32,257 nucleotides of DNA, taken from contig JAEUQV010000017.1 in assembly GCA_016789655.1 (NCBI GenBank), positions 1 to 32,257 on the forward strand, given 5' to 3'. A program made the translations under genes and the position numbers. The stretch's first letter is position 1, and the number at the start of each line of letters is the position of its first letter. Below, one piece after another: positions 8,717 through 32,257 of the stretch. This DNA comes from Candidatus Saccharimonadota bacterium (lineage in GTDB: Bacteria > Patescibacteriota > Saccharimonadia > Saccharimonadales > UBA4665). The notes beneath the pieces were generated by a model. That model ran no database searches, was not told the DNA's origin, and saw only the letters and a list, made by a program, of their open reading frames with translations.

Positions 8717-8718
8717 GG

Positions 8719-8955: not shown

Positions 8956-9094
8956 GAGTTTACCCTCCTTTGGCATGTTAGTTAAATTTTGTATTTTTCG
9001 CACCTTCCACTCCGGCGCGTTGAATACTAGTTACATAGTACGCTGCAGGATGTGGTAGGTCAAGAGAATAAATCAAGTAAATCAAGCATTGCCG

Positions 9095-9123
9095 TTGACA
9101 AGAGTTACGTACTATCATAAAAT
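9095..9123 (+). promoter_or_regulatory. Promoter of the S24 repressor gene
   Basis: TTGACA at 9095-9100, 17-base spacer, TAAAAT at 9118-9123. Transcription would begin at about 9130, that is at the ATG at 9131. AGTTACGTACT inside the spacer is a small palindrome that could be an operator. Confidence 0.7.
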
Positions 9124-9130
9124 CAAGTCA

Positions 9131-9784: not shown

Positions 9785-9865
9785 GCAACTCAATCAAGCA
9801 GTTCTTGGCGCTACGCTCACGTAACCAGCCTGCCGCTAATATGAAGTCAGCAAGCGATAGAGAAG

Positions 9866-10081: not shown

Positions 10082-10105
10082 GAGACCATAATACCACAGC
10101 AAACG

Positions 10106-11428
10106 CTACTGCGTCTTGAGGTCGAAGCGCACGTGTCCGTTTTCCAAGCACATCGCAAATAGCTCATGAATTATGGTACGTTTGCCGATTTTTGACTCAC
10201 CCATATATAATCCACGGATTGAAGTTGACTTGTCTGCTGCTGGCCGATTGTCATCGACAGACTCTAGTTTGATTAATCTCGCCCGTAATATAGTCAGCTC
10301 ATCGTGCAGTTCGGCAACTTTGTCTGTGTATTTTTGACCCCCTATCACACCTGCCAACTTGTCCTCGTACAAATTATCCTCTATCCGTTCCAGCCGCTTG
10401 ATTTGTTGCCGAATGGCTTTCATGACAGACTCTCGGTGCTGGCCTATATACGACTGCCGCATAGATTCAAGCAGTCCAGTGAGTCTGTGTAGCAGCCTAC
10501 CGCCCGCCCGGCTATTATCAATCTCGTCAAGGCACATGAGCAAATAGTCTTCTAGCCTATCTTCACGTAGAAACTGACGCCCCTTGAACAGTGGGTTGTG
10601 CTCTTTTTTGCGTTCGTGGTATCCATCTTTCAGTTTATCCTGAACAGCCATAAACAGCTTGCGCGATAGCAGCGGCTCATGAGCACCAGGATATCTTTTG
10701 CCATCAAATTGAATTTTCCCGATATAAAAAGGGTTACGTAGCACCTTATGTACGGCCGACTTAACGAGTGGTCGTCCTTTGCTGCTGAGCAATCCGCTTT
10801 TGGCGACCTCGGCCGTCACGGTACTGATATTTTGACCGGCTTGTAGGTACATTTTGAATGCATGCTCGACCAGGAAGGCTCGCTTTTCGTCTATGACGTG
10901 TACCTTCTTTCCGTTTTCTACGGTAGTTGTGTAGCCGTACGGGGACGGCGCAGGCATCCACCCCTGAGCCAGCTTTTCTTGCCAGCCCTTCATAGCTTCC
11001 TCGCGCAGATTATCGGTGTATTTCTTGGCAAACGCCACATATATCCCCCACATCAGCTTTTCATCAGATCGTGAATACTTATGTATAACCAGACTCTCTT
11101 TTACCATGTGCAGCCTACGATGCTCATCGCTTTCAAGCCAATCGTCCACAACTACAGCATCACGCAAGTTGCGCGTCAAACGGTCGGTCTTTTCGACAAC
11201 CAGGTTAACGATTTTTTGATGCTTGACATACCTCAGCATCTCACGGAACACTTTGCGCTGCTCGTTCTTTGATGCTGTTTCGGATATGCGAAACTTCTTC
11301 ACTACTCGAAGTTTTTGGTCGGCACAATATTTATCCATCAGCTTTTGCTGAGAGTTGAGCGAATAGCCATCCTCTTGCGATTTACTGGACACGCGTGCCA
11401 GAGTTACTGTTTTAGTATTTGTTGCCAT
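10106..11428 (-). CDS. Serine recombinase without zinc ribbon
   Basis: 440 residues from the ATG at 11428, which has AAAAGGAGGG 5 bases upstream. Catalytic domain (~8-155) with LARVSSKSQEDGYSLNSQ (S14) and VEKTDRLTRNL; recombinase domain (~165-285) with SPYGY and LRNPFYIGKIQFDG; a coiled-coil region (~325-400). Where the family normally has a Cys4 zinc ribbon (after HNPLFKGR, ~290) there are no CxxC pairs, and the chain jumps to LEDYLLMCLDEIDN. Either an internal deletion or a natural short form. Its C-terminus lacks the SLMVT motif, so it probably does not use the tRNA-Glu site. It is divergent from the TraD-like gene and may be the remnant of another insertion or an internal resolvase. Confidence 0.85.
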   Translation of the reverse strand: MATNTKTVTLARVSSKSQEDGYSLNSQQKLMDKYCADQKLRVVKKFRISETASKNEQRKVFREMLRYVKHQKIVNLVVEKTDRLTRNLRDAVVVDDWLESDEHRRLHMVKESLVIHKYSRSDEKLMWGIYVAFAKKYTDNLREEAMKGWQEKLAQGWMPAPSPYGYTTTVENGKKVHVIDEKRAFLVEHAFKMYLQAGQNISTVTAEVAKSGLLSSKGRPLVKSAVHKVLRNPFYIGKIQFDGKRYPGAHEPLLSRKLFMAVQDKLKDGYHERKKEHNPLFKGRQFLREDRLEDYLLMCLDEIDNSRAGGRLLHRLTGLLESMRQSYIGQHRESVMKAIRQQIKRLERIEDNLYEDKLAGVIGGQKYTDKVAELHDELTILRARLIKLESVDDNRPAADKSTSIRGLYMGESKIGKRTIIHELFAMCLENGHVRFDLKTQ

Positions 11429-11486
11429 ATATCCCTCCTTTTGGTTAGATAGCACCTATAATTATGGCTTTTAGCGGGTAACTTCT

Positions 11487-11514
11487 TTGAAGCTGTGGAT
11501 AACTCGGCTATTAT
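11487..11514 (+). promoter_or_regulatory. Promoter of the TraD-like gene
   Basis: TTGAAG at 11487-11492, 16-base spacer, TATTAT at 11509-11514; leader of about 25 bases with GGAG before the ATG. Confidence 0.5.
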
Positions 11515-11544
11515 AGGTAGAGGAAATCAACAATCTGGAGACAC

Positions 11545-13914
11545 ATGGACGCAATATCATCACTATTTGTTAGCATTTTCGGCGACTCCCCAACCACGAT
11601 TGTTATTAACGGTGCTCTACTAGCGGTCATAGCATACTGGTGCTGGCGGCTAGTTATCTCACCACTCATCGCCATCGCTCATAACGTTCGAGCCTATTTT
11701 GCGGACACTCACCTGCAAGCTCTTGAACTCATCCCGCCTAAACGCTCAGAAATTGATCCGCAAAGCACTAGCGATCTTTTTGCCGTCATGAGCCAGCGTC
11801 TTGGCAAGTACGACACAATATCGTTCGAGATTGTCGGCAACAAATATGCTGGGATTCGCTACCGTGTTGTTGCTCCTGCATATACCATTGCCAGTATCCA
11901 AAAATACTTCGCCGCATATCTGCCCGAACTAAGGTTCAAGCATCACGAAACGCTTGATGACACAGACGAATTCGACGTCTACTGTATAGCTCAGTCACGA
12001 CATTTTGCATTTCCGCTCATACCGCACGACGAGCTGCAAAAATCCGACCCGATTTCATTTCTGCACGGGGCGATGACGCGCCTTTCAGATGACGAAGAAG
12101 TCGCCATGCAACTTGTCGTCCGCCGCTATACATCACGCAAGGCCTCGCGCATTTATAACCGTTTGATCGGCAAGGGTCAGGTTCTGCTCGACAATAAACC
12201 ACGATACTACCTTATCGCCTATAGCTGGCTATGGGTTCCGTCATTATTAATCGGACTACTAGCGCATGCGTGGCAATTCGGTGCAGCCACCGCAATCGTA
12301 CTATGGGTAGCGAGTCTATCTGCCGAAAAGCAAGAGAGGCAAATCACCCACCTAGAACAAAACCTCTACGCCACAATCGCTGCAAAGCTAGAGAAGCCGC
12401 TGCTCCAGACCGACATACGCTTTGGTGTACGCTCGATGACACGCACTGGCGGGCTAGTAAATGAGTTCGTTTCTTCACTCGAACCGCTCAATACAACCAA
12501 TTTTCAGTATTTGATTCTCAAACGCCAGCGATTCGGCACCCGGCAGACAGACTATCTGCGTCGGCTATTCACCCGCCGTGTCGGCTCGATACTGCCATTC
12601 AATTCATCTGTGCTCAATACTAGTGAGCTTGCTATGCTGTTTCATTTCCCGCATGGGCTGATTAAAACCGAGGGCGTCACTCGCTCGCATAGCCGCACAC
12701 TGCCTGCACCGCTCAGCCTCCATAGCGATACGGATTTTGACATTGTCATAGGAGCAAATAAACACCACGGCAGCGAAACACCGATTGGCCTGACTTCATC
12801 CGAGCGTGAACGACACATGTTCATTGTAGGTGGCACGGGCAGCGGCAAGACCACTATGCTCAAGTATCAGCTGGTGCAGGATATACGCGGCGGCAAAGGC
12901 GTAGCGATTATCGACCCACACGGTGATCTGGCAGAGGAGCTGCTGGAGCACATGCCCAAAGAGCGCGAGAAAGACCTGATATACCTCAACCCAGACGACC
13001 TGGATCATCCAATCGGCGTAAACCTGCTAGAGCTGCCCGAAGGACTAGAGGGCAACAATCTGCTACGCGAAAAAGACCGCGTCACTGAATCGGTCGTATC
13101 GGTTATGCGCAAAGTGTTTTCCGAAGATGATAGTGGCGGTCACCGTATAGAGTACGTGCTACGAAATACTGTACAGACGGCACTCACGCTAGAGAGACCA
13201 ACGCTATTTACCATCTTTCGCCTGCTCAACGATGGCAAGTTTGCCAAGGATGCTATCAAAAATTTGCAGGACGAAGACCTCAAGGCCTTCTGGAGAAACG
13301 AGCTAGGCAAAGCTGGTAGTATGCAAAAGGTCAAAATGGCCGCAGGTATCACTGCCAAGATTGGGCGATTCCTATTCTCGGCCAGTGCCCGAGCCATGCT
13401 AGAGCAAGAAAAGTCTGCCATAGATTTTGATGAGATACTGGACGGCAAAATACTCATCTGCAACTTTTCCAAGGGCCGCCTGGGCGAAGACACCTCTATG
13501 CTGTTCGGCATAACCATCCTCGCCAAGCTACAGCTAGCAGCGCTCAAGCGCGCGGAGAAAAAGCGAACTGACCGCAAGCCGTTCTACCTCTACGTCGACG
13601 AGTTCCAAAACTTCGCCACCATGAGCTTCACGCAAATGCTCAGCGAAGCTCGTAAATATCAGGTATTCTTGACTATGGCCGAGCAAAGCACCCAGCAGCA
13701 AGACGATCAAAAACTGGTAAACATCATCCTGGCCAACGTCGGCACCGTCGTAGCCTTCCGCACCGGCAGTCCCAAAGACGAAGAACTAATCCTGCCCCTG
13801 TTTGAACCATATATAGAGAAGGGCGAAATAGCCAACCTCCCAACCTACAACTTCTACTGCCGGATTATGGGCGTGGAAGCCCAAGAGCCCATCAGTGGTG
13901 AAACTATAGTCTAA
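11545..13914 (+). CDS. TraD/VirD4-like conjugative coupling ATPase
   Basis: 789 residues. A hydrophobic helix at ~17-40, a soluble ~170-residue part, and a second hydrophobic pair near 222-255 precede a RecA/HerA-type motor: Walker A GGTGSGKTT (429-437), DPHGDLAEELL after it, Walker B YLYVDEFQNF with D685-E686, a sensor-like region MAEQSTQQQ, and RTGSP near the end. Membrane-anchored hexameric ATPases of this kind pump DNA in conjugation, or act in type IV secretion. CPR genomes often carry such a gene without a full secretion system. No relaxase or VirB channel is seen in this element, so it may use host machinery or serve another DNA-translocation role. Its 3' end overlaps the convergent TIGR04141 gene by 4 bases. 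Confidence 0.85.
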   Translation: MDAISSLFVSIFGDSPTTIVINGALLAVIAYWCWRLVISPLIAIAHNVRAYFADTHLQALELIPPKRSEIDPQSTSDLFAVMSQRLGKYDTISFEIVGNKYAGIRYRVVAPAYTIASIQKYFAAYLPELRFKHHETLDDTDEFDVYCIAQSRHFAFPLIPHDELQKSDPISFLHGAMTRLSDDEEVAMQLVVRRYTSRKASRIYNRLIGKGQVLLDNKPRYYLIAYSWLWVPSLLIGLLAHAWQFGAATAIVLWVASLSAEKQERQITHLEQNLYATIAAKLEKPLLQTDIRFGVRSMTRTGGLVNEFVSSLEPLNTTNFQYLILKRQRFGTRQTDYLRRLFTRRVGSILPFNSSVLNTSELAMLFHFPHGLIKTEGVTRSHSRTLPAPLSLHSDTDFDIVIGANKHHGSETPIGLTSSERERHMFIVGGTGSGKTTMLKYQLVQDIRGGKGVAIIDPHGDLAEELLEHMPKEREKDLIYLNPDDLDHPIGVNLLELPEGLEGNNLLREKDRVTESVVSVMRKVFSEDDSGGHRIEYVLRNTVQTALTLERPTLFTIFRLLNDGKFAKDAIKNLQDEDLKAFWRNELGKAGSMQKVKMAAGITAKIGRFLFSASARAMLEQEKSAIDFDEILDGKILICNFSKGRLGEDTSMLFGITILAKLQLAALKRAEKKRTDRKPFYLYVDEFQNFATMSFTQMLSEARKYQVFLTMAEQSTQQQDDQKLVNIILANVGTVVAFRTGSPKDEELILPLFEPYIEKGEIANLPTYNFYCRIMGVEAQEPISGETIV

Positions 13915-15545
13915 GAATCTGTTTTGGTTATATTTTCAATTCCCGCCAACTCGACTTTGTAGCCGAACCCGTCGAGCATCCTTCTTGCGTTCCTGGCATT
14001 AATTTTGCTGAAGAACGGGATATCAAACCGGTCTTTTTTACTTGTGATAATCGCATACACAATCCGCTGACCATCTGGCTTGTACTCTGCGCTGGGGTCG
14101 GTTATCTTGAGTGAACTGGAAAGCTTGTTGTTCACGAGCTTTCGAAATTCAGGGTCGTTTTTCATTAGTTCGCCTGAGACCGCTCCCTGTGAAAATAAGT
14201 GGCTCAACGTACTTGAGCCGGAGTAATGCTTAACATGAAAAATCGTCTTATCGCTAGAATACACATCGCAAAACTCGATCTTACTGTAGCCGCCGCCGTA
14301 GGAGATGTTGTCTGCATCGAAACACACGCCCGATAGCTCATCTTTGAGCTTTTGGTTGTAGCCGTTCTCGTTATTATGAAGCGCTTTGTCATAAGGTGGC
14401 AGTTTCGCTGCATAGCGCGGAATGGCTTGATACTCTTTATTAACCCGTTCCACAAAATCTTTATTAATTTTATACCACCGTCCATTTGTAATCATGTGCG
14501 TGTCGCCGTCTGCATCAACTTCAGCATATATACAGTCAAAGCAGCGCCATGTGTGCAACACGTCGTCTGTCTCGTTAGATATTGCGAGTACTTTAGCTGA
14601 TTTAAGCCTCTCTAGAGAAAGCTTCTCCTTTCCGATAAAATCAACGATTCTAGTAAGACTTATATCCTCGTACGGTGTATCTTGGTCAATATTGTACCGA
14701 CCATAGGCAAATCCAGAGATTTCAGACCACTCTATGTGCTCCGGAGTTGCTGCCCATATTTTTTGGCCGCTTCCATCGATAAGCTGCCTCACGAGCTCTG
14801 TGTTTAGCCGCTCCCTCGTCTGGGCGTCGTCTATCTCGGCTATCTGATCAATCCATTCGAAATCGGTTTTATAATCTCCGCTTTCATATCTTTCGATGCA
14901 CTGTTCCAGGATTTTCCTGACGTTAACTATGTCTATCTTGGACGAAATGTAGAGAGCATCCTTACCACTAACACTTCTACCCAGTGCAGCGTACGCAATT
15001 TTTGTTTTACCTGTGATTGCCCGCACCAAGTCCTGTTCGATATTGAGACCGAAGCTTTCTTTGTCCCCATCCTGGCTTATTTGCTCCTTACTGTGCTTGG
15101 GAACAGATTCGAGGGACGTCTTGTCGATACTTCTGATATTTTCTGGGTCGAGTACACTTAACGCAGTTTTGATCCCAAACCTCTGTTCAATAGCACCCGG
15201 ATTGAGCATATGCTTTCCGTAGCCAAAACATATCGCAAAATTCCGCTTTTTGACGCCCTCGACGACTAGAACCGCACGAGCCGATGCTGTAAAAATCGGG
15301 ATATTATCTACCGAAGAGCTATCACTTCCAAAAAAGTTTGATAACCACTTCGGCTTATTCGAGTGCGAAGGTGTTACGTATAGCTTGCCCCTAACTCCTA
15401 AATCTATCGGGCTTAGCGATTCCGAGAAAAGCTGATGCGGCACATCGATATCTGTCTTGATTAAGTATATGCTCAACTTGTTAGTTGGTATTTTCCTTGC
15501 AGGCAACTCCTGCTTTTCTCGTACTGGCTCGGGGTCTTGTACCAT
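13911..15545 (-). CDS. TIGR04141 / DUF6119 family protein
   Basis: 544 residues. The clearest family block is FHVKHYSGSSTLSHLFSQG followed by AVSGELMKNDPEFRKLV in the last quarter, preceded by CFDADNISYGGGYSKIEFCDV. TIGR04141 proteins are described only as sporadically distributed and commonly lie beside restriction or other defence genes; their activity is unknown to me. Also visible: ICFGYGKHMLNP (~106-117), typical of the N-terminal part. A minus-strand TATAAT at 15586-15591 could give an independent promoter. It is the last gene of the leftward run after the type IIG enzyme and the methyltransferase, which suggests a third component of that system or a separate defence gene. Confidence 0.75.
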   Translation of the reverse strand: MVQDPEPVREKQELPARKIPTNKLSIYLIKTDIDVPHQLFSESLSPIDLGVRGKLYVTPSHSNKPKWLSNFFGSDSSSVDNIPIFTASARAVLVVEGVKKRNFAICFGYGKHMLNPGAIEQRFGIKTALSVLDPENIRSIDKTSLESVPKHSKEQISQDGDKESFGLNIEQDLVRAITGKTKIAYAALGRSVSGKDALYISSKIDIVNVRKILEQCIERYESGDYKTDFEWIDQIAEIDDAQTRERLNTELVRQLIDGSGQKIWAATPEHIEWSEISGFAYGRYNIDQDTPYEDISLTRIVDFIGKEKLSLERLKSAKVLAISNETDDVLHTWRCFDCIYAEVDADGDTHMITNGRWYKINKDFVERVNKEYQAIPRYAAKLPPYDKALHNNENGYNQKLKDELSGVCFDADNISYGGGYSKIEFCDVYSSDKTIFHVKHYSGSSTLSHLFSQGAVSGELMKNDPEFRKLVNNKLSSSLKITDPSAEYKPDGQRIVYAIITSKKDRFDIPFFSKINARNARRMLDGFGYKVELAGIENITKTDS

Positions 15546-15741
15546 AATCCGAAAATCTCTCTTGCTAATGACGCTGTATAGTTACATTATACATCTAAAA
15601 AACATCCCCTATTCACCCTTCGTCATAGGCAAGCTCATACACCCGCGTCATGCTGTTTGATGGGCTGGCAATCTTGACGCCGTTAGAATCGGTATATTTT
15701 AGATAAATTTTTTGGAACGTGACGTATGCGCACTCCGGTTG

Positions 15742-17349
15742 TTAATCCCGGTATAGCCGTCGCCTTTGCAACTTAAGCCATATTCTATTGAACATCTTGA
15801 TCTCTTTCTCGGTAAAGCCTAGGTTTTCTCCCAAAATTTTCTTATCTGTATAGGAGAGCAGTTTTTCCATCTCGATTTTCGACCTCAGTGAATCTTCAAT
15901 GTACGGTAGTAGCTCAGAGTTATTTGAATTGTAGGGCAACAAAATATCTTCTACCTCGCTTGGCATTAACTCCAAGACACCGCCACCGTGACTTCGCCCC
16001 GATATCTCGCTAAAAGCTAAAGACAGAGAGTTGTAATAGCTCGCTGTCAAAGCTTGGGGGTTCACACCGATCTTAGGGGTAACGCGATGCATCGTATCCG
16101 TCGTATATGCACCCGCCTCATTAATGACCAGCTTAGGATAAAGATTATTCCGACGTATAAATAGCGCTTCTGACTTTCTTAGGGAGGGTATCGTCTGCCA
16201 TTCAGCTCGGATACTAGTCTTGTAACCTTCATTAATTTTCGACTCCTCTCCAAGCCGGATGTACGATAACGCACCTTCGTGTTTCCGTTCGTATAATTCC
16301 TCTTTGGCAGGGAAGTCTAAGATGTAAGCTCGTGCCTGCTTATCAATGTTATCTTTCCAGTCACGCATTCTAAAGACAGGGCTCGGAACCTGAACACTGC
16401 GCCCAACCAGTGGTTTAGCAAAGTCCTCAAGATTATACTTTTCTACAATTGAGTGTGGAACCGTGAAGAAACTATTTGAGCCTGTAGTTATGCCCACTTC
16501 CACGCCTGCGTAATTTCCAAGCCTAGAGACAACTCCGCGCTCCTTTACTCTCTCGATAAGATCAATTTCGTCTTGATCAAGGAAGTAGAACGTCCACTTA
16601 TTAGTCTTAAAATCGATCCTCTTTTTTGGCGTATTCAGCTCCTTTATGTCAAGACTAATGAGATCACTAGCGTCATGCAACTCTAGATGTTCGATACTAT
16701 GGTCACTGGTCCCATCTTTTTCACAAAATAATAATACAACCTCTTGTTGGATATGCGGGAAAACCAATTTTTCAAAAGAGATAATATTAATTTTATTGTA
16801 ATAGTGTGAAAGAAATTCTCTTAGCTGCTTAGCATAGGAAACTTGCAATATCTCAGCGGGCAACACGAAAGCGATTCGCCCATTCGGAGCAAGCATCATA
16901 CTCGATCCTACCACGAACGAGACCCAGGCATTTGTTAGCTTGCTGTACTTTAAGCCTGCTTCATTGAATATGACTGATGCTGTATGCTTCTGTAGGTTAT
17001 TAAAAAACTGATATCTAATATATGGGGGGTTTCCGATGATAACATCGAATTTTTTCTTTTTTGAATAGAAAGCGTAGAAATCTTCACAGATCACCTGCGT
17101 TTTAGCAGGCTTTATTTTGGCCGCCTTCTTAGCCTCGATTTCATCCAGCTCAAGCCCTAGCATAGACTTATATTTAAAATTTCCTTTTTTGAGGGCATCA
17201 AGAAACACGCCATCACCACAGCTTGGCTCGAAGATAGCTGCGTCTTCCTTGTCACTCAGGGCCCACTTAAGCATAAAGTCAGCTATATTCTCGGGCGTGT
17301 AGAATCCACCCCGCAATTTCTCGTTTGATACCTCACTAATTAGACGCAT
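15742..17349 (-). CDS. N6-adenine DNA methyltransferase, Eco57I-like
   Basis: 535 residues. SAM-binding and catalytic motifs in gamma-class order: GGFYTP (14-19), FEPSCGDGVFL (40-50), and NPPY (107-110) in DVIIGNPPYIRY. The C-terminal half (~230-480) is the target-recognition region, ending in a helical bundle. The ATG overlaps the upstream type IIG gene by 14 bases, so the two are one transcript. There is no nuclease domain; it probably methylates either the second strand of the same asymmetric site or a different site. No strong RBS is visible, consistent with coupled translation. Gap 15546-15741 downstream holds no gene. Confidence 0.85.
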   Translation of the reverse strand: MRLISEVSNEKLRGGFYTPENIADFMLKWALSDKEDAAIFEPSCGDGVFLDALKKGNFKYKSMLGLELDEIEAKKAAKIKPAKTQVICEDFYAFYSKKKKFDVIIGNPPYIRYQFFNNLQKHTASVIFNEAGLKYSKLTNAWVSFVVGSSMMLAPNGRIAFVLPAEILQVSYAKQLREFLSHYYNKINIISFEKLVFPHIQQEVVLLFCEKDGTSDHSIEHLELHDASDLISLDIKELNTPKKRIDFKTNKWTFYFLDQDEIDLIERVKERGVVSRLGNYAGVEVGITTGSNSFFTVPHSIVEKYNLEDFAKPLVGRSVQVPSPVFRMRDWKDNIDKQARAYILDFPAKEELYERKHEGALSYIRLGEESKINEGYKTSIRAEWQTIPSLRKSEALFIRRNNLYPKLVINEAGAYTTDTMHRVTPKIGVNPQALTASYYNSLSLAFSEISGRSHGGGVLELMPSEVEDILLPYNSNNSELLPYIEDSLRSKIEMEKLLSYTDKKILGENLGFTEKEIKMFNRIWLKLQRRRLYRD

Positions 17350-20317
17350 GTGCTTTTTTGATTGATGGTATTAATTTGCCGTCCTCGCCCAAGCCATACA
17401 AGCTGTCTATCAGCTTATCAAGTTCTGTCTTGATGCGATAAAACTCTCTTTCCGCTAGTGCTAACTCTCGAGGATTGGTCGCATATCTGTCTACTGCAGA
17501 TTGTTGCTGTATTAGTTTTTGTTGCGTGTTTGCGATAGAGTCATGGATCAGTTTTTGTTCTTCCAGGTCAAAGTTGACTACCTTGATTGGGAGTCTTTTT
17601 AGCACCTTTGTTCCGCGAGCGATATAGCCACCCCTAAACACTTCACCGATTAAAGAAGCGTACCACTCCGTGTATTTTGAGCTAAGTATTGCTTGAAGGT
17701 AGTACGCAGAGTATTGAGATTCTTCTGGCAATGTAATCATACAGTATCCAGCAGTGCCACCGGAGGATATCAGAGTATGGCTAGTGTCGATCGCGTATTT
17801 ATCGCCCTGAGACATAACCCCAACAACAATCTTTTGATCGACATCACACTTCTCTAGGCTCTGGTGGCGTCCATAGCTATACCACTCATCGGGCGTTTCC
17901 GGAGTAGGTTTAATGTCTCGTCTGGGGTCGCTCAGTATCGACTTATAACTATTTAGAAAGTAAAACGCATGAGGATAGTTTCTTTCCAAATCGTATAGCC
18001 CGACAAGGGAAAGTCTGTCGCTATCCTTAACATACGGATACACGACAAAAGAATTTGGCTTCAGCATTCTGTAGCTGCTAAGAGTGCCGTCTCCAGAAGC
18101 TGTCCTGAAATACGGCCGCGTTAATTCTTTTTCGATTTTCCAGTCCCTAGAGCCGTAGGAGAAGTAGACATAATTCTCGTCTTCACGATCAGCACTGTGT
18201 ATATACACACTATTCGCACTGGTCTGTATACCGTTATATATGCCATCTTGCCCAACTAGATCTTCCAGTGTCTGGGTATTCTGCAGCAACTTATGCCTAG
18301 CACTACGCAAGCTATCCGGAATCATTACCCATACATCGTTATCAAGTTCGCTCAATGAAATCGTCGAGAGGTTGGCTGTTTTCTGCTTAAGAGTCAGCGC
18401 ATTCCATGCGGGAAGACTGGATACCTCTTGGTATGTAAACGTCTCCCTTTTTTGCTTCTGTAGTATAAGGATACAGGTATACGTAGTTTTATCCTTAAAC
18501 ACCTGATTGGCACCAAAAGATATAACCTCCTCAAGCGCACAGTTTTCCGACAAGTATTCACGGAGTTTTTGTCCTGCACCAACCTTCATAAACTTACTCG
18601 GAACTATATATCCAAGGTGCCCGCCGTCCGCCAGGAGCTCAAAACCCTGCTCAATAAACAAGAAGTACTTATCGAATTGCTTATAGGACGTCTTGTACTT
18701 CCTTTTGTAGATAGGCAGCTCTTGAGGGGTGAATCGCTTCATGTCCTCTGTTGACATATAGGGAGGGTTGCCGACTATAACATTGAATTTGTGGGCTGAA
18801 TTTTGTAATGGATTAATAGGGCCTCTTTCCTCGTCTGATACGTCATCACTACCAACTAGGCTGTTTCCAAACTGAATGTTATTACTAAGGGTTGGTAGTG
18901 CTGGGGTTGCAATACTGGCGTTATCCTCGTCCTCAAGTAGTTTAAGCAAGAGCCCAAATTTACACGCTTCAACGGCCCCGTAATCCTTATCTACGCCATA
19001 TATACACTGTTCAAGCACTTGTCTCTTTAGAGAATAAGGGAGCCTATAATTTGCAATGCTGATTTGCGTAAGCGTTTCGGGTTCATTCGCAAGATACCAG
19101 TCGATTAGATAATCATTGATCATCTGAAAAGCCTCTAAGAGAAAAGCACCCGAGCCACATGCTATATCTGCCAAGCGTACCATCAATACCTCATCGGCAC
19201 TTTTTGAGTCTAGCTGTTTGGCTAGAGAGGAGCCGAGTATGTCTCTAATGATGGGAGTGGGCGTTGTTACGATATCCCGGTCTACATGTTCCGGTTTCTT
19301 ATCAAGAGATAACACTCCGCTAGAAATGGTAAGCTCTTCTCCTAGATATACTTCGTAAATTCGCCCTAATATGTCCGATGATATGACACTGAATGAATAG
19401 GATGTGTGCGGGAAGTATAGCTCCCTGATAATACTCCAGAACGAAGACGCATTATTCTTGATAACCTGCTCATTCATTTTGTGGTTGAATAAACCCGAGT
19501 TATATTTTCTATCGGCTTGCTGAAACTTAACTATTAACTTGTTAAAGTCTCCCTCAGTTGCCAGTTTGAGCAAAGACTTGTATTTCTCAAGTTCTCGATC
19601 TTCGCAGACTCTCAGGAAGATGATGCTGTTTAGATAGCTTTGTACGAGATCATTCAGTTCGCGTTGAGAAATTGAAGTGTTATGAGACAATATCTGCTCT
19701 CCGAGCACGACTCGCCATTGGTTTATTTGCGACAAGAATAGATCGTCAATACTAAATCGCTGCAGCTGAACTTCAATTGCAGACCACGTTTTATCAAATT
19801 CTCCCGAATAAACGCTTTCTTTACCCAGGAGGTCTCGTATCTCATCGAACTTTTCGGAATACTCAGTATAGTGATACAGCTTTACTCTGGAGTTAGCACT
19901 ACTGTCATCTGCACTCACTATGCGAGAACAGTCGTATATTGCTAAATATTCAAAGTTAGAGAGTACTGATATTTTCATTTTTGCCGTAAAGCCATACCGT
20001 CGTATCTGTGCGGCGGGTTCAGGATCAATACTGATGTTTACACTCGGCTTCTTGGCCTCCAGGAAGAACTTCCTTTCGGAAAAAAGCCGAAAGGCATAGT
20101 CAGGTTTTTTAGTCGCAGCACCAGCGCTTGCCTTGAGAGGTGTTTCGACCACCACTTCGCGCTCCGCCGTGGCTTTAGCCTGTTTGTTCTGCATATCCCA
20201 ACCAAGCAGCCCAAATAAGGGGTCTAGAAAATCGGCTCTAAGCTGCGCTTCATTATATGCATCAGTAATGTAGTACGCTCTATCGTTCTGGTATTTACTA
20301 ACTAAATCGTCAATCAT
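17336..20317 (-). CDS. Type IIG restriction enzyme-methyltransferase
   Basis: 993 residues in one chain. N-terminal nuclease of PD-(D/E)XK type: KKPDYAF with D73 and FFLEAKKP with E87 and K89. Central N6-adenine methyltransferase: DIACGSGAFLLEAF (384-397) and NPPY (517-520) in VIVGNPPYMS. The C-terminal part (~640-930) is the target-recognition domain and ends in a coiled coil (EEQKLIHDSIANTQQKLIQQ). Such enzymes cut at a fixed distance from an asymmetric site unless it is methylated. A minus-strand TATACT at 20326-20331 ends 8 bases before the ATG, so the message is nearly leaderless; a second promoter is possible in the hairpin at 20397-20519. First gene of the methylase cassette. All catalytic residues are present, so it looks functional. 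Confidence 0.9.
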   Translation of the reverse strand: MIDDLVSKYQNDRAYYITDAYNEAQLRADFLDPLFGLLGWDMQNKQAKATAEREVVVETPLKASAGAATKKPDYAFRLFSERKFFLEAKKPSVNISIDPEPAAQIRRYGFTAKMKISVLSNFEYLAIYDCSRIVSADDSSANSRVKLYHYTEYSEKFDEIRDLLGKESVYSGEFDKTWSAIEVQLQRFSIDDLFLSQINQWRVVLGEQILSHNTSISQRELNDLVQSYLNSIIFLRVCEDRELEKYKSLLKLATEGDFNKLIVKFQQADRKYNSGLFNHKMNEQVIKNNASSFWSIIRELYFPHTSYSFSVISSDILGRIYEVYLGEELTISSGVLSLDKKPEHVDRDIVTTPTPIIRDILGSSLAKQLDSKSADEVLMVRLADIACGSGAFLLEAFQMINDYLIDWYLANEPETLTQISIANYRLPYSLKRQVLEQCIYGVDKDYGAVEACKFGLLLKLLEDEDNASIATPALPTLSNNIQFGNSLVGSDDVSDEERGPINPLQNSAHKFNVIVGNPPYMSTEDMKRFTPQELPIYKRKYKTSYKQFDKYFLFIEQGFELLADGGHLGYIVPSKFMKVGAGQKLREYLSENCALEEVISFGANQVFKDKTTYTCILILQKQKRETFTYQEVSSLPAWNALTLKQKTANLSTISLSELDNDVWVMIPDSLRSARHKLLQNTQTLEDLVGQDGIYNGIQTSANSVYIHSADREDENYVYFSYGSRDWKIEKELTRPYFRTASGDGTLSSYRMLKPNSFVVYPYVKDSDRLSLVGLYDLERNYPHAFYFLNSYKSILSDPRRDIKPTPETPDEWYSYGRHQSLEKCDVDQKIVVGVMSQGDKYAIDTSHTLISSGGTAGYCMITLPEESQYSAYYLQAILSSKYTEWYASLIGEVFRGGYIARGTKVLKRLPIKVVNFDLEEQKLIHDSIANTQQKLIQQQSAVDRYATNPRELALAEREFYRIKTELDKLIDSLYGLGEDGKLIPSIKKAHASN

Positions 20318-20396
20318 CTATACCAAGTATAACTTCTTACGCTCTTTTTAAGAACCTAAACCATCCAATTCTAGTTGTTGTCACTTTGAAGAGTTG

Positions 20397-20519
20397 GACC
20401 TTCCCACTGCCTATTCAGTATAAGGGGGAAATTGGCCGACTCAAGGTCGGTCAGACGTGGGGTGCTCCACCTTGACTCGTCCAATTTACCCCTTGCCCCG
20501 GACGCGCAGCGGGAAGGTC
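20397..20519. ncRNA. Long two-part hairpin, candidate RNA or operator
   Basis: Outer stem 20397-20409 with 20507-20519 (12 of 13 pairs) and inner stem 20422-20447 with 20469-20494 (26 positions, three mismatches), loop of 21. No reading frame. The shape, two stems with an asymmetric internal loop, recalls structured small RNAs, but no known family matches. On the minus strand TTGAGT (20439-20444) and TATACT (20417-20422), 16 apart, lie within one arm and could be a promoter for the restriction operon, so the palindrome may instead act on DNA. Confidence 0.5.
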
Positions 20520-20558
20520 GATTCCGTTCAGGAATAAGAATTAAAAAGGAGGTATATT

Positions 20559-20873
20559 ATGCAGACAGAAAATGCAGTTGAGATTGCAAGGGTTAATGAT
20601 GAGTTTCGTAGAAGCGGACAAGGGATTGTGGTTACACGTGGTGTGCAGATACTTGAAGATTTGGTTGGGCTGATCGATGAAGTGCGTAGGTTCAATGAGT
20701 TTACCGAGGACAACGATCCGTATGGAGAACACGACTTCGGTACGGTGTATTGGCTGGGCGAAAAGGTGTTTTGGAAGATTGATTGCTATGACAAGACACT
20801 CAAGCACGGTGAAGACCCGCTTTCGTCGAAATGTCGGCGAGTCTTGACCGTTATGCTTGCGAGTGAATATTAG
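20559..20873 (+). CDS. DUF3768 family protein
   Basis: 104 residues, preceded by AAAAAGGAGG. Family features: IARVNDEFRRSGQGIVVTRGV (split: ARVNDEFR at 10-17, VVTRGV at 24-29), DNDPYGEHDFGTV (52-64), FWKIDCYD (71-78) and RRVLTVMLASEY at the end. DUF3768 is common on plasmids and integrative elements; its function is unknown. It stands alone between the hairpin at 20397 and a clear terminator at 20896. Confidence 0.9.
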   Translation: MQTENAVEIARVNDEFRRSGQGIVVTRGVQILEDLVGLIDEVRRFNEFTEDNDPYGEHDFGTVYWLGEKVFWKIDCYDKTLKHGEDPLSSKCRRVLTVMLASEY

Positions 20874-20895
20874 TTCACTGGCAGTTTTCATTATA

Positions 20896-20928
20896 GCCCG
20901 GAAGTCAGTAGATGGCTTCCGGGTTTTT
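20896..20928 (+). terminator. Intrinsic terminator after the DUF3768 gene
   Basis: CCCGGAAG (20897-20904) and CTTCCGGG (20916-20923) close a hairpin followed by T5. Confidence 0.85.
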
Positions 20929-20958
20929 GGTATTAGCTAATTTTGAAGGAGATAAGTG

Positions 20959-21216
20959 ATGAGTGAGACAACAGGATACAACGGATGGACGAATTATGAG
21001 ACGTGGTTGGTGGCGCTGTGGCTAAATAACGATAGGCTGACATACGAAGCGCTTGAGGCGATAAAAGCAGAAAGCGGAAGCGTGCGTGGTAAGGCAGAGC
21101 AGCTCGAAGAGCTCGTGCAAGAACTGTATGAGTTTGAGCCGGTAAGCCTGATTGCCGACTTCGTAAACGCGGCGCTTGGTCGGGTTAACTGGGTGGAGAT
21201 TGTGACGGCTGAGTAG
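20959..21216 (+). CDS. DUF7249-like small protein
   Basis: 85 residues from the ATG at 20959, with AAGGAG 7 bases upstream (a GTG three bases earlier is less likely). The block YNGWTNYETWLVALWLNND near the N-terminus is the recognisable feature of a small family common in phages and plasmids; the rest is helical and acidic. Function unknown. It belongs to the accessory-gene block of element 2. Confidence 0.8.
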   Translation: MSETTGYNGWTNYETWLVALWLNNDRLTYEALEAIKAESGSVRGKAEQLEELVQELYEFEPVSLIADFVNAALGRVNWVEIVTAE

Positions 21217-21258
21217 TTTCAGAACGTCCTGAGCAAGACGATAAAAGGCTCAGTACGC

Positions 21259-21468
21259 CTAGCCTTTGGCGGTACGATGCTCTGCATCAAGCATACGCCA
21301 GAAAATGTCTCGCACATCTTGCGCTTCTTGTGAGGTGTCCGTACAGAGGTTGTCCATTATGGCAGCATATTTTGGGTCTTCATCCTGATCGGGCATTTCT
21401 CTCACCAGGCGGACAACTTTACTGAAACGTCGTAGTTCATCATCCATGTTTTTTGCATCTGCGGTCAT
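21259..21468 (-). CDS. Small acidic hypothetical protein
   Basis: 69 residues, family not recognised. Charged and helical throughout (DDELRRFSKVVRLVREM, then YAAIMDNLC and QDVRDIFWRMLDAEH). GGGAG lies about 12 bases before the ATG; an internal ATG at codon 8 is possible. It follows the replication-relaxation-like gene in the same direction with a 41-base gap and may share its transcript. Confidence 0.6.
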   Translation of the reverse strand: MTADAKNMDDELRRFSKVVRLVREMPDQDEDPKYAAIMDNLCTDTSQEAQDVRDIFWRMLDAEHRTAKG

Positions 21469-21509
21469 GTCACTACTCTACTCCCTAGGGACTGGATGTC
21501 AACAATTGT

Positions 21510-22232
21510 TCATATGCGCTTAATCTGCGCCACACTTGTGACAACGTGGAATGAAAAATCATCCTCATCTAAATACGCATCCTCCATACGTTCCGCGGCG
21601 TATTTGCGCAGTGCCGTGCGTTCGGCGGCAGAGCTTGCGCGCACCATGTAGACATCCGGGTATTCATCCCACTCCCAGTCACCATCATCGTAGTTTTGAA
21701 TATATTTGCGGATGCGTTTTTTGGCGATGAATAGGTGCTGACCGTCCGTAAGCTCGACAAAGAACTTCTTGCAAGATGTTGGTCGCACCCGCAAGCCAGG
21801 TAGCGGTCGGATTATACCCTCCTCGCCACCCATCTCTAGTGCAGTCATAATCTGTGCGGAATCGCCGTATATACCGTGTAGCACATTGTAGGCGCCGTGT
21901 ATGGCTACTTGCTGGTCCACGAAGGCTGCGGATCGGTTGGCGTCTTTGCTGCGTGCTTTCCAGGCAGAGTCTGGTAGCTGACTACCTACTTCATTACGTA
22001 AGTAGTCTATAGCCTGAGATGTCAAAAAGTATCGTGCCGATTTGTTCTGCAATCGATAGCTTTTTTCATGTAGTTTTCCAATATATCCAGCCTTGTGTAG
22101 TATCTCTAGTGCGCTATAGGCAGAGTTGGCTGTAATGTTTCTGGTACTAGCAAGATTATCTGTAGTGGCATAGCGGAAGCGAAGGATGAGTTCGAGGATG
22201 TTAAGTTGTTTGTCGTTTAGTTGTCTAGCCAT
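21510..22232 (-). CDS. Replication-relaxation-like winged-helix protein
   Basis: 240 residues. The N-terminal ~95 residues form a winged helix (LNDKQLNILELILRFRYATTDNLA split: residues 5-28; AYSALEILHKAGYIGKL around 38-54; RYFLTSQAIDYL around 67-78). Mid-protein PLPGLRVRPTSCKKFFVELTD corresponds to the conserved region of the Replic_Relax family, often written as a PD/F-type block. Proteins of this type are linked to plasmid replication or transfer initiation in Gram-positive elements. TATACGTAGTATA just upstream (22240s) is a palindrome overlapping a possible -10 and may be its own operator. Its presence hints that element 2 can exist or replicate as a circle. Confidence 0.65.
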   Translation of the reverse strand: MARQLNDKQLNILELILRFRYATTDNLASTRNITANSAYSALEILHKAGYIGKLHEKSYRLQNKSARYFLTSQAIDYLRNEVGSQLPDSAWKARSKDANRSAAFVDQQVAIHGAYNVLHGIYGDSAQIMTALEMGGEEGIIRPLPGLRVRPTSCKKFFVELTDGQHLFIAKKRIRKYIQNYDDGDWEWDEYPDVYMVRASSAAERTALRKYAAERMEDAYLDEDDFSFHVVTSVAQIKRI

Positions 22233-22300
22233 ACGTTATACGTAGTATAAAAGAGGGAACCTAAAATAGCTAGTATTACAGAGGTGGTAGTCCAAAAAAG

Positions 22301-22320
22301 TTCTAATTTCGTAATTAGAA
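22301..22320. promoter_or_regulatory. Operator-like palindrome before the third recombinase
   Basis: TTCTAATT and AATTAGAA are perfect 8-base arms around TCGT, in the non-coding gap between the divergent replication-relaxation-like gene and the recombinase operon, 22 bases before the -35 box. Confidence 0.5.
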
Positions 22321-22341
22321 AATAATACAACAGCATAAGCA

Positions 22342-22371
22342 TTGAAACTATCCCTATTAGTGTACTATAAT
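22342..22371 (+). promoter_or_regulatory. Promoter of the third recombinase operon
   Basis: TTGAAA at 22342-22347, 18-base spacer, TATAAT at 22366-22371. Start of transcription near 22378, 25 bases before the small gene at 22403. Confidence 0.7.
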
Positions 22372-22402
22372 TATCCCTATAAGGTAACATAGCGAGAGTA
22401 AA

Positions 22403-22561
22403 ATGAACAAGCCGATAGGATCAAAAAACAACTTAGCGCCCCTACCCGCCATCATACAGGCGGATGAAAACGAGCGCCTGGAATACCTAGCGGCATTGCT
22501 CCTTGAGATCGTTGACGAAGAGTTAAGAGAAAGTGGGGTAGATGCATGCAATCTGAGTTAG
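22403..22561 (+). CDS. 52-residue protein overlapping the recombinase start
   Basis: ATG at 22403 to TAG at 22559-22561. The C-terminal half is a strongly acidic amphipathic helix (NERLEYLAALLLEIVDEEL). It is in another frame than the recombinase and overlaps its first 16 bases. The promoter at 22342 reads through both. Family not recognised. It occupies the same place as the 73-residue protein before the first recombinase, which supports a shared accessory role, such as control of integration direction, although the two sequences are not clearly alike. Confidence 0.65.
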   Translation: MNKPIGSKNNLAPLPAIIQADENERLEYLAALLLEIVDEELRESGVDACNLS

Positions 22562-24264
22562 TCGGCAAAAACGCGGTAGCCGCTATACGCGTATCAACGA
22601 CCAAGCAAGGTACGGATGGCGACTCGCCCGAGGCGCAAAAAGAGCAGATAGAGCGTTTTGCGGCCAACAAGGGCATCGTGATCAAAAAGTTCTTTGTGTT
22701 CATGGAGTCGGCCAGCAAAGAACAGCAACCGATGCAGGAGGCGGTCGATTATTGTACCGACGCCGTGAATGACGTTGATCTGTTTATCATAAAGTCAATC
22801 GACCGCTTTACACGCGGCGGCAGCTTGAGCTACGATATGCTGAAATCACAGCTAGAGGCCAGCCGCGTGCAGCTCGTCGACATTTACGGCGTCATCAGCG
22901 CCCAGCAGGTCAATACGCTCGACCACTTGGGTTTCGAGTACAAATGGAGCATATACAGCCCCAGCAAGAAATCTGAAATACTAGAAGCGGAGCGATCCAA
23001 AGACGAGCTGCGCGACATCATGAGCCGTATGATTGGTGCTGAAATCCGCTACACGCAAAACGGTTACTGGATGCGCCAGCCACCCTACGGCTTCGTGAGT
23101 GAAAAAGTCGACACCAACCAAGGCAAGCGCACCATACTACGCCCCCGCGAAGAGGAGGCAAAATATGTACGCATGATATTCGACTTGCGTGCCGACGGAT
23201 TGCTTACCGACCAGGAGATCGTAGAGAAACTCAATGATCTGGGTTATCAGACACGCGTCAGCTACATACGCAATACCGAAGACCTGACGCAAGTTATTTC
23301 CAAGCGCGGCGGCCGCCCACTCACCGTCAAACGCCTGCACAAGATCGTCACCAACACGATCTACGCAGGTATCAACGTGGAGAAATGGACAAACTATAGC
23401 CCCACGAAATGTGCTTTTGACGGGCTCATCAGCATCGACCTGTTTAACCGAGCAAACCGGGGCAAGAAATACATTGCCTACAATGAGGCCGACGGTGAGT
23501 ACGAGATACAACGCCAGCTACCCAAAAAGCATGTGGTAGACAAAACAATCCGCAATGCCGACTTCCCCTACAAAAAGTTCATCCTCTGCCCGGAGTGCAA
23601 GCATGCTCTGCTTGGCAGCGCGAGCCGAGGTAAATCAGGAAAGCTCTACCCGGCATATCACTGTAGCCACCACGGCCACTATTTCCGTATACCAAAAGAT
23701 AAGATGGACGAGAAAATCGTACAGTTCATCGGCCGTATAAAGATACATGACGACAAACTCGACCTGCTGCTCGATACTATCAGGAAAGAATACGAGCGCA
23801 GGCAGGCGCTGTCGGGCGACGACCGAAAAGCCCTACAGAAGCAGATTGACGCGCTTGAGGGTCAAGCTTCGGTTGCGCTCGACAAGATTATGATGGTGTC
23901 CAACCCAACTACCATCGCCTATCTGGAGGGCGAGATCGACAAAATTAAGCAAAATATCAAGAAGCTGCAAAAGGAGCAGCGGCAAATGGCAGACAAAAAA
24001 CCGCTCGATATCGACCGCATCTTAGCTCGGGTGCGCTACTTCGTGGAAAACCTCGATCTACTACTGTTAAGGCAGCGCGATCCGCACAAAAAAGCCCAAC
24101 TTTTTGGAGTACTTTTTGACCAGCTCCCAACCTATGCAGATTTAGATTGTGGAACACAAAGAACACCCCTTTTTACAGGGGTGAACTCCGTTTTTCGGCT
24201 ACTAACCGAAGAAAAATCTCTTATGGTGACCCCAAGGAGAGTCGAACTCCTCTTGCCGGGATGA
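22546..24264 (+). CDS. Large serine recombinase whose 3' end lies in tRNA-Glu
   Basis: 572 residues. Catalytic domain (~8-160) with AAIRVSTTKQ (S17) and IKSIDRFTRGG; recombinase domain (~175-320) with RQPPYGF and IVTNTIYAGINVEKW; a zinc ribbon with CPECKHALLG and a CSHH second half (C, C, C, H-type); a coiled coil (~415-485). It is the likely integrase of element 2. The frame runs 41 bases into the antisense of tRNA-Glu: the last 13 residues (MVTPRRVELLLPG) are encoded by the attachment core and the tRNA. When excised, the tail after MVT would instead be the 37 residues now attached to the first recombinase. A hairpin CACCCC/GGGGTG at 24164-24183 could give the tRNA a replacement terminator on the minus strand. 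Confidence 0.92.
   Translation: MQSELVGKNAVAAIRVSTTKQGTDGDSPEAQKEQIERFAANKGIVIKKFFVFMESASKEQQPMQEAVDYCTDAVNDVDLFIIKSIDRFTRGGSLSYDMLKSQLEASRVQLVDIYGVISAQQVNTLDHLGFEYKWSIYSPSKKSEILEAERSKDELRDIMSRMIGAEIRYTQNGYWMRQPPYGFVSEKVDTNQGKRTILRPREEEAKYVRMIFDLRADGLLTDQEIVEKLNDLGYQTRVSYIRNTEDLTQVISKRGGRPLTVKRLHKIVTNTIYAGINVEKWTNYSPTKCAFDGLISIDLFNRANRGKKYIAYNEADGEYEIQRQLPKKHVVDKTIRNADFPYKKFILCPECKHALLGSASRGKSGKLYPAYHCSHHGHYFRIPKDKMDEKIVQFIGRIKIHDDKLDLLLDTIRKEYERRQALSGDDRKALQKQIDALEGQASVALDKIMMVSNPTTIAYLEGEIDKIKQNIKKLQKEQRQMADKKPLDIDRILARVRYFVENLDLLLLRQRDPHKKAQLFGVLFDQLPTYADLDCGTQRTPLFTGVNSVFRLLTEEKSLMVTPRRVELLLPG
24222..24242. other. Right attachment-site copy inside tRNA-Glu
   Basis: Same 21 bases as 1501-1521. 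From 24224 on they are the CCA end, acceptor 3' strand and part of the T-arm of tRNA-Glu, so integration leaves the tRNA complete. Confidence 0.85.
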
Positions 24265-24298
24265 AAACCCGATGTCCTAACCGATAGACGATGGGGCC
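24224..24298 (-). tRNA. tRNA-Glu (UUC)
   Basis: 75 bases on the minus strand, CCA encoded. Acceptor GGCCCCA pairs with TGGGGTC; D-arm ATCGTCTATCGGTTAGGAC; anticodon stem TCGGG/CCCGG around loop TTTTCAT with anticodon TTC at its centre; T-arm GAGGAGTTCGACTCTCC. A73 and CCA follow. It is the integration target of the elements to its left; its original terminator now lies at 1466-1503. Confidence 0.97.
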
Positions 24299-30771: not shown

Positions 30772-31404
30772 CTACACAGTCACGAATTTCTTGACTGCGT
30801 AGTTGCCCAACGCTCCTCCGAGGAGGATGATGGTGAGTTGGAATGCACCCACCACCACAGTGTGCCACGGACCCCATGCGACCGGCACTAGCTGGCCGAG
30901 AAGGCCGTTGAGCCCGCTCGCCACAGCGAGTCCGATCAAGAGTCCGACGATCCAGCCTCCAAGGCTAAACCACTTGTCGTTGTTCTTGACCGCCGGCTGG
31001 ATCGCGGTCGGGGGGAACTCGTCGACCTGGGGGGCCGACGAGACGGACGCAGTCGCGGCGGGTGCCGAGACCGTGGTGCCCTGCGGCGGGGTCGGCTCGT
31101 CGTCTGTCTCATCATCGTCCACTGGGGCGAAGAGCGACAGGCCGAGTCGAGCTGCCTCCTGACGGAGCTGCTCCTCGTCGGAGTTGACCATCGCAACGAC
31201 TGCCCTTGCGGCAGTGAGTGCTGCACCGCGTCGCGCGGGGAGCACTTCGTCGATGGTCTGCTGGATGACCCTGCCACGAGCGTCGACTGACGCAGCGAGC
31301 TGGGACATCGCCCGTTCGGCAGCTGTGCTGGTGAGCACGACGTGCTGCGGGGTGCCGAGAGCTGGGGTGTTGGCGGGCGTAGTACCCGTCGTCTGTGCGG
31401 ACAT
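30772..31404 (-). CDS. GC-rich membrane protein with two C-terminal helices
   Basis: 210 residues, AAGGAAGGAA upstream of the ATG. The N-terminal ~75 residues are helical (TSTAAERAMSQLAASVDARG, then RGAALTAARAVVAMVNSDEEQ); a Pro/Thr/Asp-rich linker follows (~95-140); the hydrophobic segments at ~150-172 (GGWIVGLLIGLAVASGLNGLL) and ~180-200 (VVVGAFQLTIILLGGALG) end in a short basic tail. Family not recognised. It precedes the Thr/Pro-rich gene by 65 bases in the same direction; similar base composition and membrane location suggest an operon. The codons are strongly GC-ending, unlike the surface genes to the left. Confidence 0.75.
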   Translation of the reverse strand: MSAQTTGTTPANTPALGTPQHVVLTSTAAERAMSQLAASVDARGRVIQQTIDEVLPARRGAALTAARAVVAMVNSDEEQLRQEAARLGLSLFAPVDDDETDDEPTPPQGTTVSAPAATASVSSAPQVDEFPPTAIQPAVKNNDKWFSLGGWIVGLLIGLAVASGLNGLLGQLVPVAWGPWHTVVVGAFQLTIILLGGALGNYAVKKFVTV

Positions 31405-31416
31405 GATGATTCCTTC

Positions 31417-31437
31417 CTTTCCCTTGTAGGGGAAAGA
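31417..31437 (-). promoter_or_regulatory. Hairpin next to the ribosome-binding site
   Basis: CTTTCCC and GGGGAAAG lie on both sides of a short loop just upstream of the GGAAGG before the ATG at 31404; folding would partly occupy the translation start region. Confidence 0.35.
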
Positions 31438-31527
31438 GAGCTGGGTTGCGATTTTTCGTTCGCTAACCAGGCTGTGGGCGGTATGCCCTTCGACGCGATG
31501 AGCGGTCGAATCTTTCCCTTGGATGGG

Positions 31528-31580
31528 TCAGAACAGCACCCTACACATGAGCCAAGCTCACGCACAAAGTGCTGTTCTGA
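31528..31580. repeat. 12-bp perfect inverted repeat enclosing a small hairpin
   Basis: TCAGAACAGCAC (31528-31539) with GTGCTGTTCTGA (31569-31580), and inside TGAGC-CAA-GCTCA (31548-31560). It lies in the leader region of the GC-rich pair. Could be an operator or an RNA element. Confidence 0.6.
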
Positions 31581-31689
31581 ACAGAATTGAATCATCACCA
31601 ACATATCTAAACCAAAAACCAAAAAACCACTTACCACCTTTTGTTTCCATGTGTCTGTTTTATTTACCTAACAAAGGTGTGTACGTACT

Positions 31690-31841
31690 CGTCTGTTCCC
31701 TCTCCTGAAAGAATCGGGCCGCTCAACCTGGGCTGTAAACAGCTTACGGGTTAGCACGGGGACGGTAGCGTAGCCGTAGACCTCTCCCACCACCACACCT
31801 TGGCTGCGGGCATACGGCAGGGCAATCTAGCAGCCTTTTTT
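31690..31841 (+). ncRNA. Candidate small RNA ending in a terminator
   Basis: No reading frame. The region contains short hairpins (GCTG-TAAA-CAGC, ACGG/CCGT) and ends in GGCTGC (31802-31807) paired with GCAGCC (31830-31835) followed by T6 on the plus strand. No promoter is convincing and none of tmRNA, RNase P, SRP or 6S signatures was found, so this is speculative. Confidence 0.35.
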
Positions 31842-31842
31842 C

Positions 31843-31870
31843 CAAATAGGTAGCTATGGCTACCTATTTG
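31843..31870. repeat. Perfect 12-bp stem-loop
   Basis: CAAATAGGTAGC and GCTACCTATTTG around TATG. T6 precedes and A7 follows on the plus strand, so the stem could extend imperfectly. Part of the hairpin cluster; also enclosed by AGACCTCTCCCA (31778-31789) with its exact complement at 31926-31937. Confidence 0.65.
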
Positions 31871-31960
31871 TCAAAAAAACCGCCAGCTTACTCCTGCTGT
31901 ATTCCCTCGCTTAAAGGCGGGGTAATGGGAGAGGTCTGTTCTGCGCCAGGAGCCACGGAC

Positions 31961-32010
31961 CTGCGCTAGGTCTAACCTAGAGCAATTGCTCTAGGTTAGA
32001 CCTAGCGCAG
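31961..32010. repeat. Perfect 50-bp palindrome
   Basis: The two 25-base halves are exact reverse complements with no spacer (centre AGCAATTGCT). Each half also contains its own small inverted repeat: CTAGGT/ACCTAG at 31966-31980 and again at 31991-32005, giving four evenly arranged copies of the hexamer. Nothing coding overlaps it. Confidence 0.9.
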
Positions 32011-32257
32011 ATCGACGCTGCTCAACCAGAGCAGAGCGCTGAAGAGAAGTAGGCGGTAGATAGTATTTGGTAGGTAGGAAAGGAATGCTAGCGCATCCCT
32101 AGTAGAGATAACATGCACACAGAAAGCCAGTTTTCCAGCTTTGTAGCTAGCCCTTCTTGGCTAGTAGCACCGCAAAACTTCGCAGTATATTCACATATAC
32201 TTTGTCGCTTTGCGTTACTCCTATCTCAAGAATCATCTTGCTACAAAACCATAAAAC
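32011..32257. other. Gene-free right end of the window
   Basis: No gene seen. Two more hairpins: CTAGCC-CTTCTT-GGCTAG (32147-32164) and a two-part stem CGCAAA/TTTGCG (32171-32214) enclosing AGTATAT/ATATACT (32184-32201). Confidence 0.5.

Follow-up and report, generated by a model that had tools for sequence, protein, structure and literature searches.

REPINs (REP-BIMEs) with their RAYT transposases are the closest described counterparts of the element analysed here. According to the available sections of two papers (PMC3116915, PMC8266576), the resemblance includes palindromic units of 20-25 nt, inverted doublets acting as the unit, compensatory changes in the arms, species-specific sequences and Y1 (HUH) RAYT genes at conserved loci. 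TIRtrons with their TIRYT transposases are similar in that a Y1 transposase lies between self-complementary repeats, dimers of which are dispersed as well, and in that intragenic REPs occur in repair and pseudouridine-synthase genes (PMC3733652, sections available to us). Already known from that source are intragenic REPs, Y1 genes bounded in this way and, in Xanthomonas recB, a single example of distinct REPs occupying nearly the same position. Another parallel is offered by the Rickettsia palindromic elements (RPE), short palindromes that lie in frame inside unrelated genes. In-frame palindromic inserts of this kind are not known to us to have an assigned mobiliser. For CGTC repeats, including RPE-4 and RPE-6, no associated transposase is reported in the sections of PMC3733652 at hand.

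The window, that is the whole stretch of DNA analysed here, is one entire contig (C3, 32,257 nt) of a 118-contig, 1.35-Mb, 93%-complete genome of a member of the Saccharibacteria (G000), an assignment based on its best RNase HII relatives in named genomes, the majority of which carry this label. Its 50-bp palindrome probably represents a REPIN-like non-autonomous element mobilised by a RAYT, with intragenic copies resembling those of the Rickettsia elements; its mobility we infer from the repeats. The palindrome and its parts are located as follows:

31405-32257, no strand: non-coding stretch containing the palindrome, between the minus-strand open reading frame at 30772-31404 and the contig end
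31961-32010, no strand: perfect 50-bp palindrome, the window copy of dispersed family A
31962-31984, no strand: left 23-nt hairpin unit TGCGCTAGGTCTAACCTAGAGCA, from the unit scan (L012:3963-3985; L012 starts at contig base 28000)
31985-31986, no strand: AT spacer of 2 nt between the two units
31987-32009, no strand: right 23-nt unit, the reverse complement of the left unit, so that the variable heads face inward

The arms at 31961-31985 (CTGCGCTAGGTCTAACCTAGAGCAA) and 31986-32010 are exact reverse complements of 25 nt each with a spacer of 0, as the first-pass annotation had read them, and extend to 31958-31985 and 31986-32013 if one mismatch is allowed. Its statement that such halves are rare by chance held as well: in 20 mononucleotide shuffles of the window, zero-spacer arms reached at most 11 nt, which excludes a chance origin of the 25-nt arms. 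In the palindrome a 23-nt hairpin unit, TGC[GT]CTAGGT-CTA-ACCTAG[AC]GCA, occurs twice in inverted orientation, and the proposed anatomy, with CTAGGT/ACCTAG pairs that permit either one large hairpin or two small ones, is correct. Four copies of these hexamers are present, at 31966, 31975, 31991 and 32000; they had been called evenly placed, but their spacings are 9, 16 and 9. None of the six reading frames is open through the palindrome. The palindrome also matched the microRNA family RF03255 with 36 bits (gathering score 60), which we attribute to chance similarity with a perfect hairpin.

The bare CTAGGT hexamer is not enriched across the window (12 observed against 13.8 expected). A genome search with 91 nt around the palindrome detected copies on nine contigs of G000, and a unit scan of 12 fetched stretches of this genome yielded 19 units at 10 loci (C3, C26, C56, C58 with two loci, C62, C76, C88, C108 and C116), to which we refer as family A. 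Nine of these loci carry inverted pairs with spacers of 2-28 nt, six of them perfect and three with a single mismatch; the C108 locus, near a contig end, has a single unit. Oriented alike, the units read TGC[TCT/GCT/GCC/GAC]AGGTTAGACCTAGCGCA, a few with single changes, and their core AGGTTAGACCT conforms to the motif RGG-N5-CCY. The variable heads (TCT, GCT, GCC, GAC) match between both units of each pair, so that the two arms co-vary from copy to copy, and the doublet therefore behaves as the unit. Heads point outward in eight pairs and inward only in the pair of the window. The pattern CTAGGTNNNACCTAG has 8 forward matches in G000 and none in 59 relatives, and exact patterns of the family-A consensus found no match in genome_contigs and viral_contigs, collections from which records close to G000 may be excluded. 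Weak pattern matches at two mismatches (46 forward against 24 in the reversed control) were by themselves not counted as family A. Two candidate copies were dropped: C35:4719-4734, as C35 holds no hairpin unit, and C84:2180-2194, where only 15 bases match.

Half of the family-A loci lie within protein-coding genes. Five pairs are inserted in long open frames of G000 without breaking them, in host genes that are unrelated to one another:

C26: family-A pair in frame in a gene for a DDAH-like protein
C56: family-A pair in frame in a gene that we read as an FNR-like enzyme, with no Pfam match
C58: family-A pair in frame in a gene for a group-1 glycosyltransferase
C88: family-A pair in frame in a gene for an RluA/RluD-family pseudouridine synthase
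C116: family-A pair in frame in the gene for RNase HII

The C62 locus, the second C58 locus and the C76 locus were left out of this count because of short frames or an element near the start. The inserts add short peptides, e.g. CARLDLAQ..CARSNLAQ, to core enzymes of a reduced genome. At a further locus, C108, the unit lies in the leader of a cobalamin riboswitch, truncated where the contig ends (29.8 bits against a gathering score of 31.5, E 4.5e-6); the corresponding riboswitch of the congener G001 scores 36.2 bits, and in both species the unit sits in a peripheral stem. With five of ten loci in frame in genes and one in a riboswitch, family A is not predominantly extragenic. It also differs from REPINs in its low copy number, in its saccharibacterial host and in lacking a GTAG tag at the foot of the hairpin; no GTAG adjoins any of the 19 units and their flanks share no common tetranucleotide. 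In-frame insertion into unrelated genes, which also applies to a sister family (family B, in UvrC and a TrmA-like gene), recalls the Rickettsia elements. The sequences are unrelated to these, however, the unpaired CGTC tag is absent from family A, and families of the same design flank RAYT genes here.

Genes with a Y1_Tnp domain are present in 17 of 41 genomes (G000 and relatives), and G000 has five of them above the Pfam cut-off. In the 93%-complete assembly none of these five has family A at its flanks, and the cognate RAYT may lie in an assembly gap or may have been lost. Sister families do flank such genes. The Y1_Tnp gene on C44 lies between inverted pairs of family B (TGCGTCAAGGACGGACCCTGACGCA), that on C21 is bounded by family C, and family D flanks a RAYT of G001 (C122) on both sides. 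The C44 and C122 genes thus show the TIRtron arrangement, a Y1 gene between self-complementary repeats with dispersed dimers elsewhere, which does not apply to family A. Overall, family A shares with REPINs a palindromic unit in the range of 20-40 nt, present in multiple dispersed copies and arranged in inverted doublets with short spacers, whereas a RAYT flanked by the same repeat is found for families B, C and D only. We therefore call family A REPIN-like rather than a REPIN.

The RAYT-type proteins contain an NH-hydrophobic-H motif and a Y...RYIHLNP stretch. They match the NCBIfam model of REP-associated tyrosine transposases only distantly (37-40 bits, cut-off 80), the sole match of two NCBIfam models tested, and a sequence search with the G001 RAYT yielded no solved structure. 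Among 32 loci around Y1_Tnp genes (L038-L069), 21 passed a test for a long RAYT-type open reading frame, and 14 of these 21 loci of this order have an RGG-N5-CCY hairpin within 250 nt (13 of 22 in an earlier version of the count). Such hairpins numbered 21 in 11,447 nt of flank and 0 in 51,783 nt elsewhere at these loci, for a core that was defined after some of the loci counted had been inspected. One RAYT locus, beside a gene that we take to encode an ATPase-like protein, is syntenic in all seven species of the genus. A second, next to genes that we read as ruvA and ruvC, is shared by G000 (C44) and G004, with family B in both, and a third, beside a presumably murD-like gene, is shared by G000 and G001. 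At two of the three loci compared, the palindromes beside syntenic RAYTs differ between species. In a tree, the RAYTs of G000-C21 and G001-C122 group with a gene of G046 (support 99/96); nearly identical TGTGAAAGGAT hairpins accompany the latter two genes, and family C is found at G000-C21.

Family B occurs at 13 further loci in G000, one of them weak (C112). The context of ten of these was examined: UvrC contains a pair in frame, a TrmA-like methyltransferase gene one unit, and a deaminase-like open reading frame a pair near its start. CGTC is present in family B, but within the stem. As a side observation, family-B copies occur within or beside genes for DNA repair and RNA modification on C61 (L093), C63 (L082) and C44 (L039) of G000, with UvrC, a TrmA-like enzyme and ruvA/ruvC-like neighbours. 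This echoes the host bias described in the available sections of PMC3733652.

Four of the ten family-A sites (RNase HII, RluD, the riboswitch and the FNR-like gene) carry an element of family D or E in congeners, and neighbouring genes confirm that the shared-site loci are orthologous. The RNase HII site holds a family-A pair in G000, a single family-D unit TGTGAAAGGATTATCCTATCACA in G001 and a family-E pair, TGGTGAAAGGTTAGACCTCACACCA and its inverse, in G002, all three in the loop ahead of the R/GAD motif; no insert was found in RNase HII of G004 and G006. The loop has 29 residues in G001, G004 and G006 and 22-28 in the other parsed loci. As its length in G001 equals that in G004 and G006, the family-D unit may have replaced older loop sequence instead of lengthening the loop. 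In RluD, family A (G000) and a family-D pair (G001) start at the same codon, two after WLR, and G003, G004 and G006 have no insert. The riboswitch of G001 carries family D at the position of family A in G000, and in the FNR-like gene the right boundary of family E is at most 1 nt from that of family A, with the left boundary a few codons off. Families D and E came to light in the RNase HII and RluD orthologues, so that sharing at these two sites does not count as independent evidence, and were located elsewhere by a genus-wide pattern search. Without these two sites, two of six D/E loci outside RAYT loci coincide with family-A sites (the riboswitch on C166 and the FNR-like gene on C17); C92, C10, C11 and C13:61093 do not. 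Compared with the single Xanthomonas case in the available sections of PMC3733652, sharing here extends to four orthologous sites, including a riboswitch, with up to three species and three families.

Among 80 RNase HII loci kept from named genomes, JAGORO010000001.1 (Saccharibacteria) shares its exact loop sequence with G002, and in a scan of 38 RNase HII loci (10 unparsed) the best loop hairpin contains the RGG-N5-CCY core only in G000, G001, G002 and JAGORO010000001.1. The AlphaFold model of the latter RNase HII with its family-E insert has a mean pLDDT of 89.7, and both segments below 50 (121-127 and 129-136) fall within the element-encoded residues 112-141. Two side observations concern further inserts. 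RNase HII of another Saccharibacteria genome (L144) has a different 11-bp loop hairpin without the core, possibly a further family. RluD of G005 (L112) has about 20-30 extra residues at the palindrome site of G000 and G001 with no obvious hairpin by eye, which may be a decayed element. Among the congeners, whose compared proteins are 56-81% identical, no empty site was close enough to fix exact ends or reveal a target duplication.

How could such elements spread? The inverted pair would be copied as single-stranded hairpin DNA by a RAYT-type Y1 (HUH) transposase, and fresh copies would settle around the genome. Copies within genes would persist only if the frame is kept and the loop is tolerant, and those within RNA only as a peripheral stem. 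The window copy, which is intergenic and has its units joined head to head, resembles the abutted ends of a circularised pair; its heads-inward arrangement could be the junction formed when an ordinary heads-outward pair with TCT heads circularised. Single-stranded circular intermediates are used by IS200/IS605 elements (PMC6006769, abstract), and Bertels and Rainey described REPIN excision events in reads (PMC3116915, sections available). The shared sites point to in-place turnover or to insertion hot spots. Since sites are shared with family D, the RAYT lineage at the murD-like locus seems to have once served family A, although its G000 copy now has family-C flanks. We tentatively extend this to a scenario that we consider possible but rather less than even in probability: the sites would be older than their sequences, palindromes being replaced in place as the hairpin preferred by the RAYT drifts, and the window copy would have arisen when a circularised pair inserted again by way of its spacer. 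The orthologous sites (RNase HII, RluD, FNR-like enzyme and cobalamin riboswitch) would then keep an element while its sequence turns species-specific.

Other explanations of the palindrome have to be weighed against a RAYT-mobilised, REPIN-like element. The first-pass annotation had proposed a replication origin, a resolution site or a dense operator. A large perfect palindrome could indeed extrude a cruciform, and the predicted RNA fold of a 391-nt region around it is very stable (z -8.5). Yet a replication origin or dif site would be expected as a single or a few copies at a defined chromosomal place, whereas the 23-nt unit is dispersed over 10 loci, five in protein-coding genes and one in a riboswitch; this disfavours any single-site function, fits a mobile repeat and makes such roles extremely improbable. 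Hardly more probable is a fold-back assembly artefact, which could be suspected from the position 247 nt from the contig end and from the unique inward orientation of the heads. The outer flanks of the palindrome differ, however, and eight further inverted pairs exist at independent loci, which renders an artefact unlikely.

Somewhat more weight, though still little, is due to two further readings. The hairpins could be immobile and selected for a regulatory or RNA-processing function, which would conserve the sites; four sites are common to several species although their sequences differ, and the riboswitch unit is in a peripheral stem in both species. Against this improbable reading stand the unrelated host genes, the families that differ by species, the RluD genes of G003, G004 and G006 that lack an insert, and the presence of the same families beside transposase genes. 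We regard it as about equally improbable that family A is a MITE-like element of an unrelated (e.g. DDE) transposase and that the adjoining Y1 genes are coincidental. The short inverted pair, the missing tag and the failure to find a RAYT flanked by family A would suit such an element, but families B, C and D of the same design flank RAYTs on both sides, and RGG-N5-CCY hairpins cluster at RAYT loci.

As far as our literature searches show, the system in Saccharibacteria, the riboswitch as host and the occupation of several orthologous sites by species-specific families are new. Among the literature matches listed for REPIN, RAYT and Rickettsia palindrome topics, in a scope that left out most subscription journals, none reported such elements in Saccharibacteria, and the main text of PMC3733652, in the sections available, does not mention TM7 or Saccharibacteria. 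In two genomes a single family both supplies in-frame inserts and borders a RAYT (G001 with family D, G000 with family B), which opens the question of the mobiliser to direct testing. Sites that are shared but differ in sequence provide a natural experiment on how REPIN populations are renewed, whether through insertion and loss or through replacement in place.

Two other features of the window were noted in passing. Shortly before the palindrome, at 31778-31937, lies an imperfect inverted repeat of about 160 nt with the ends AGACCTCTCCCA and TGGGAGAGGTCT and a conserved AGCTTACTCCTG stretch. It has three related copies (window 31778-31937; G000 C108:10313-10471; C110:3145-3199) and could be MITE-like or a structured RNA. 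The region 5593-24298 has island-like content:

5593-7272, 10106-11455 and 22546-24264: three large serine recombinases
24224-24298: tRNA-Glu, overlapped by the serine recombinase at 22546-24264

The same region also encodes an Mrr-type endonuclease, two Eco57I-type methylases, a TrwB/TraG-like ATPase and a DUF6119 protein.
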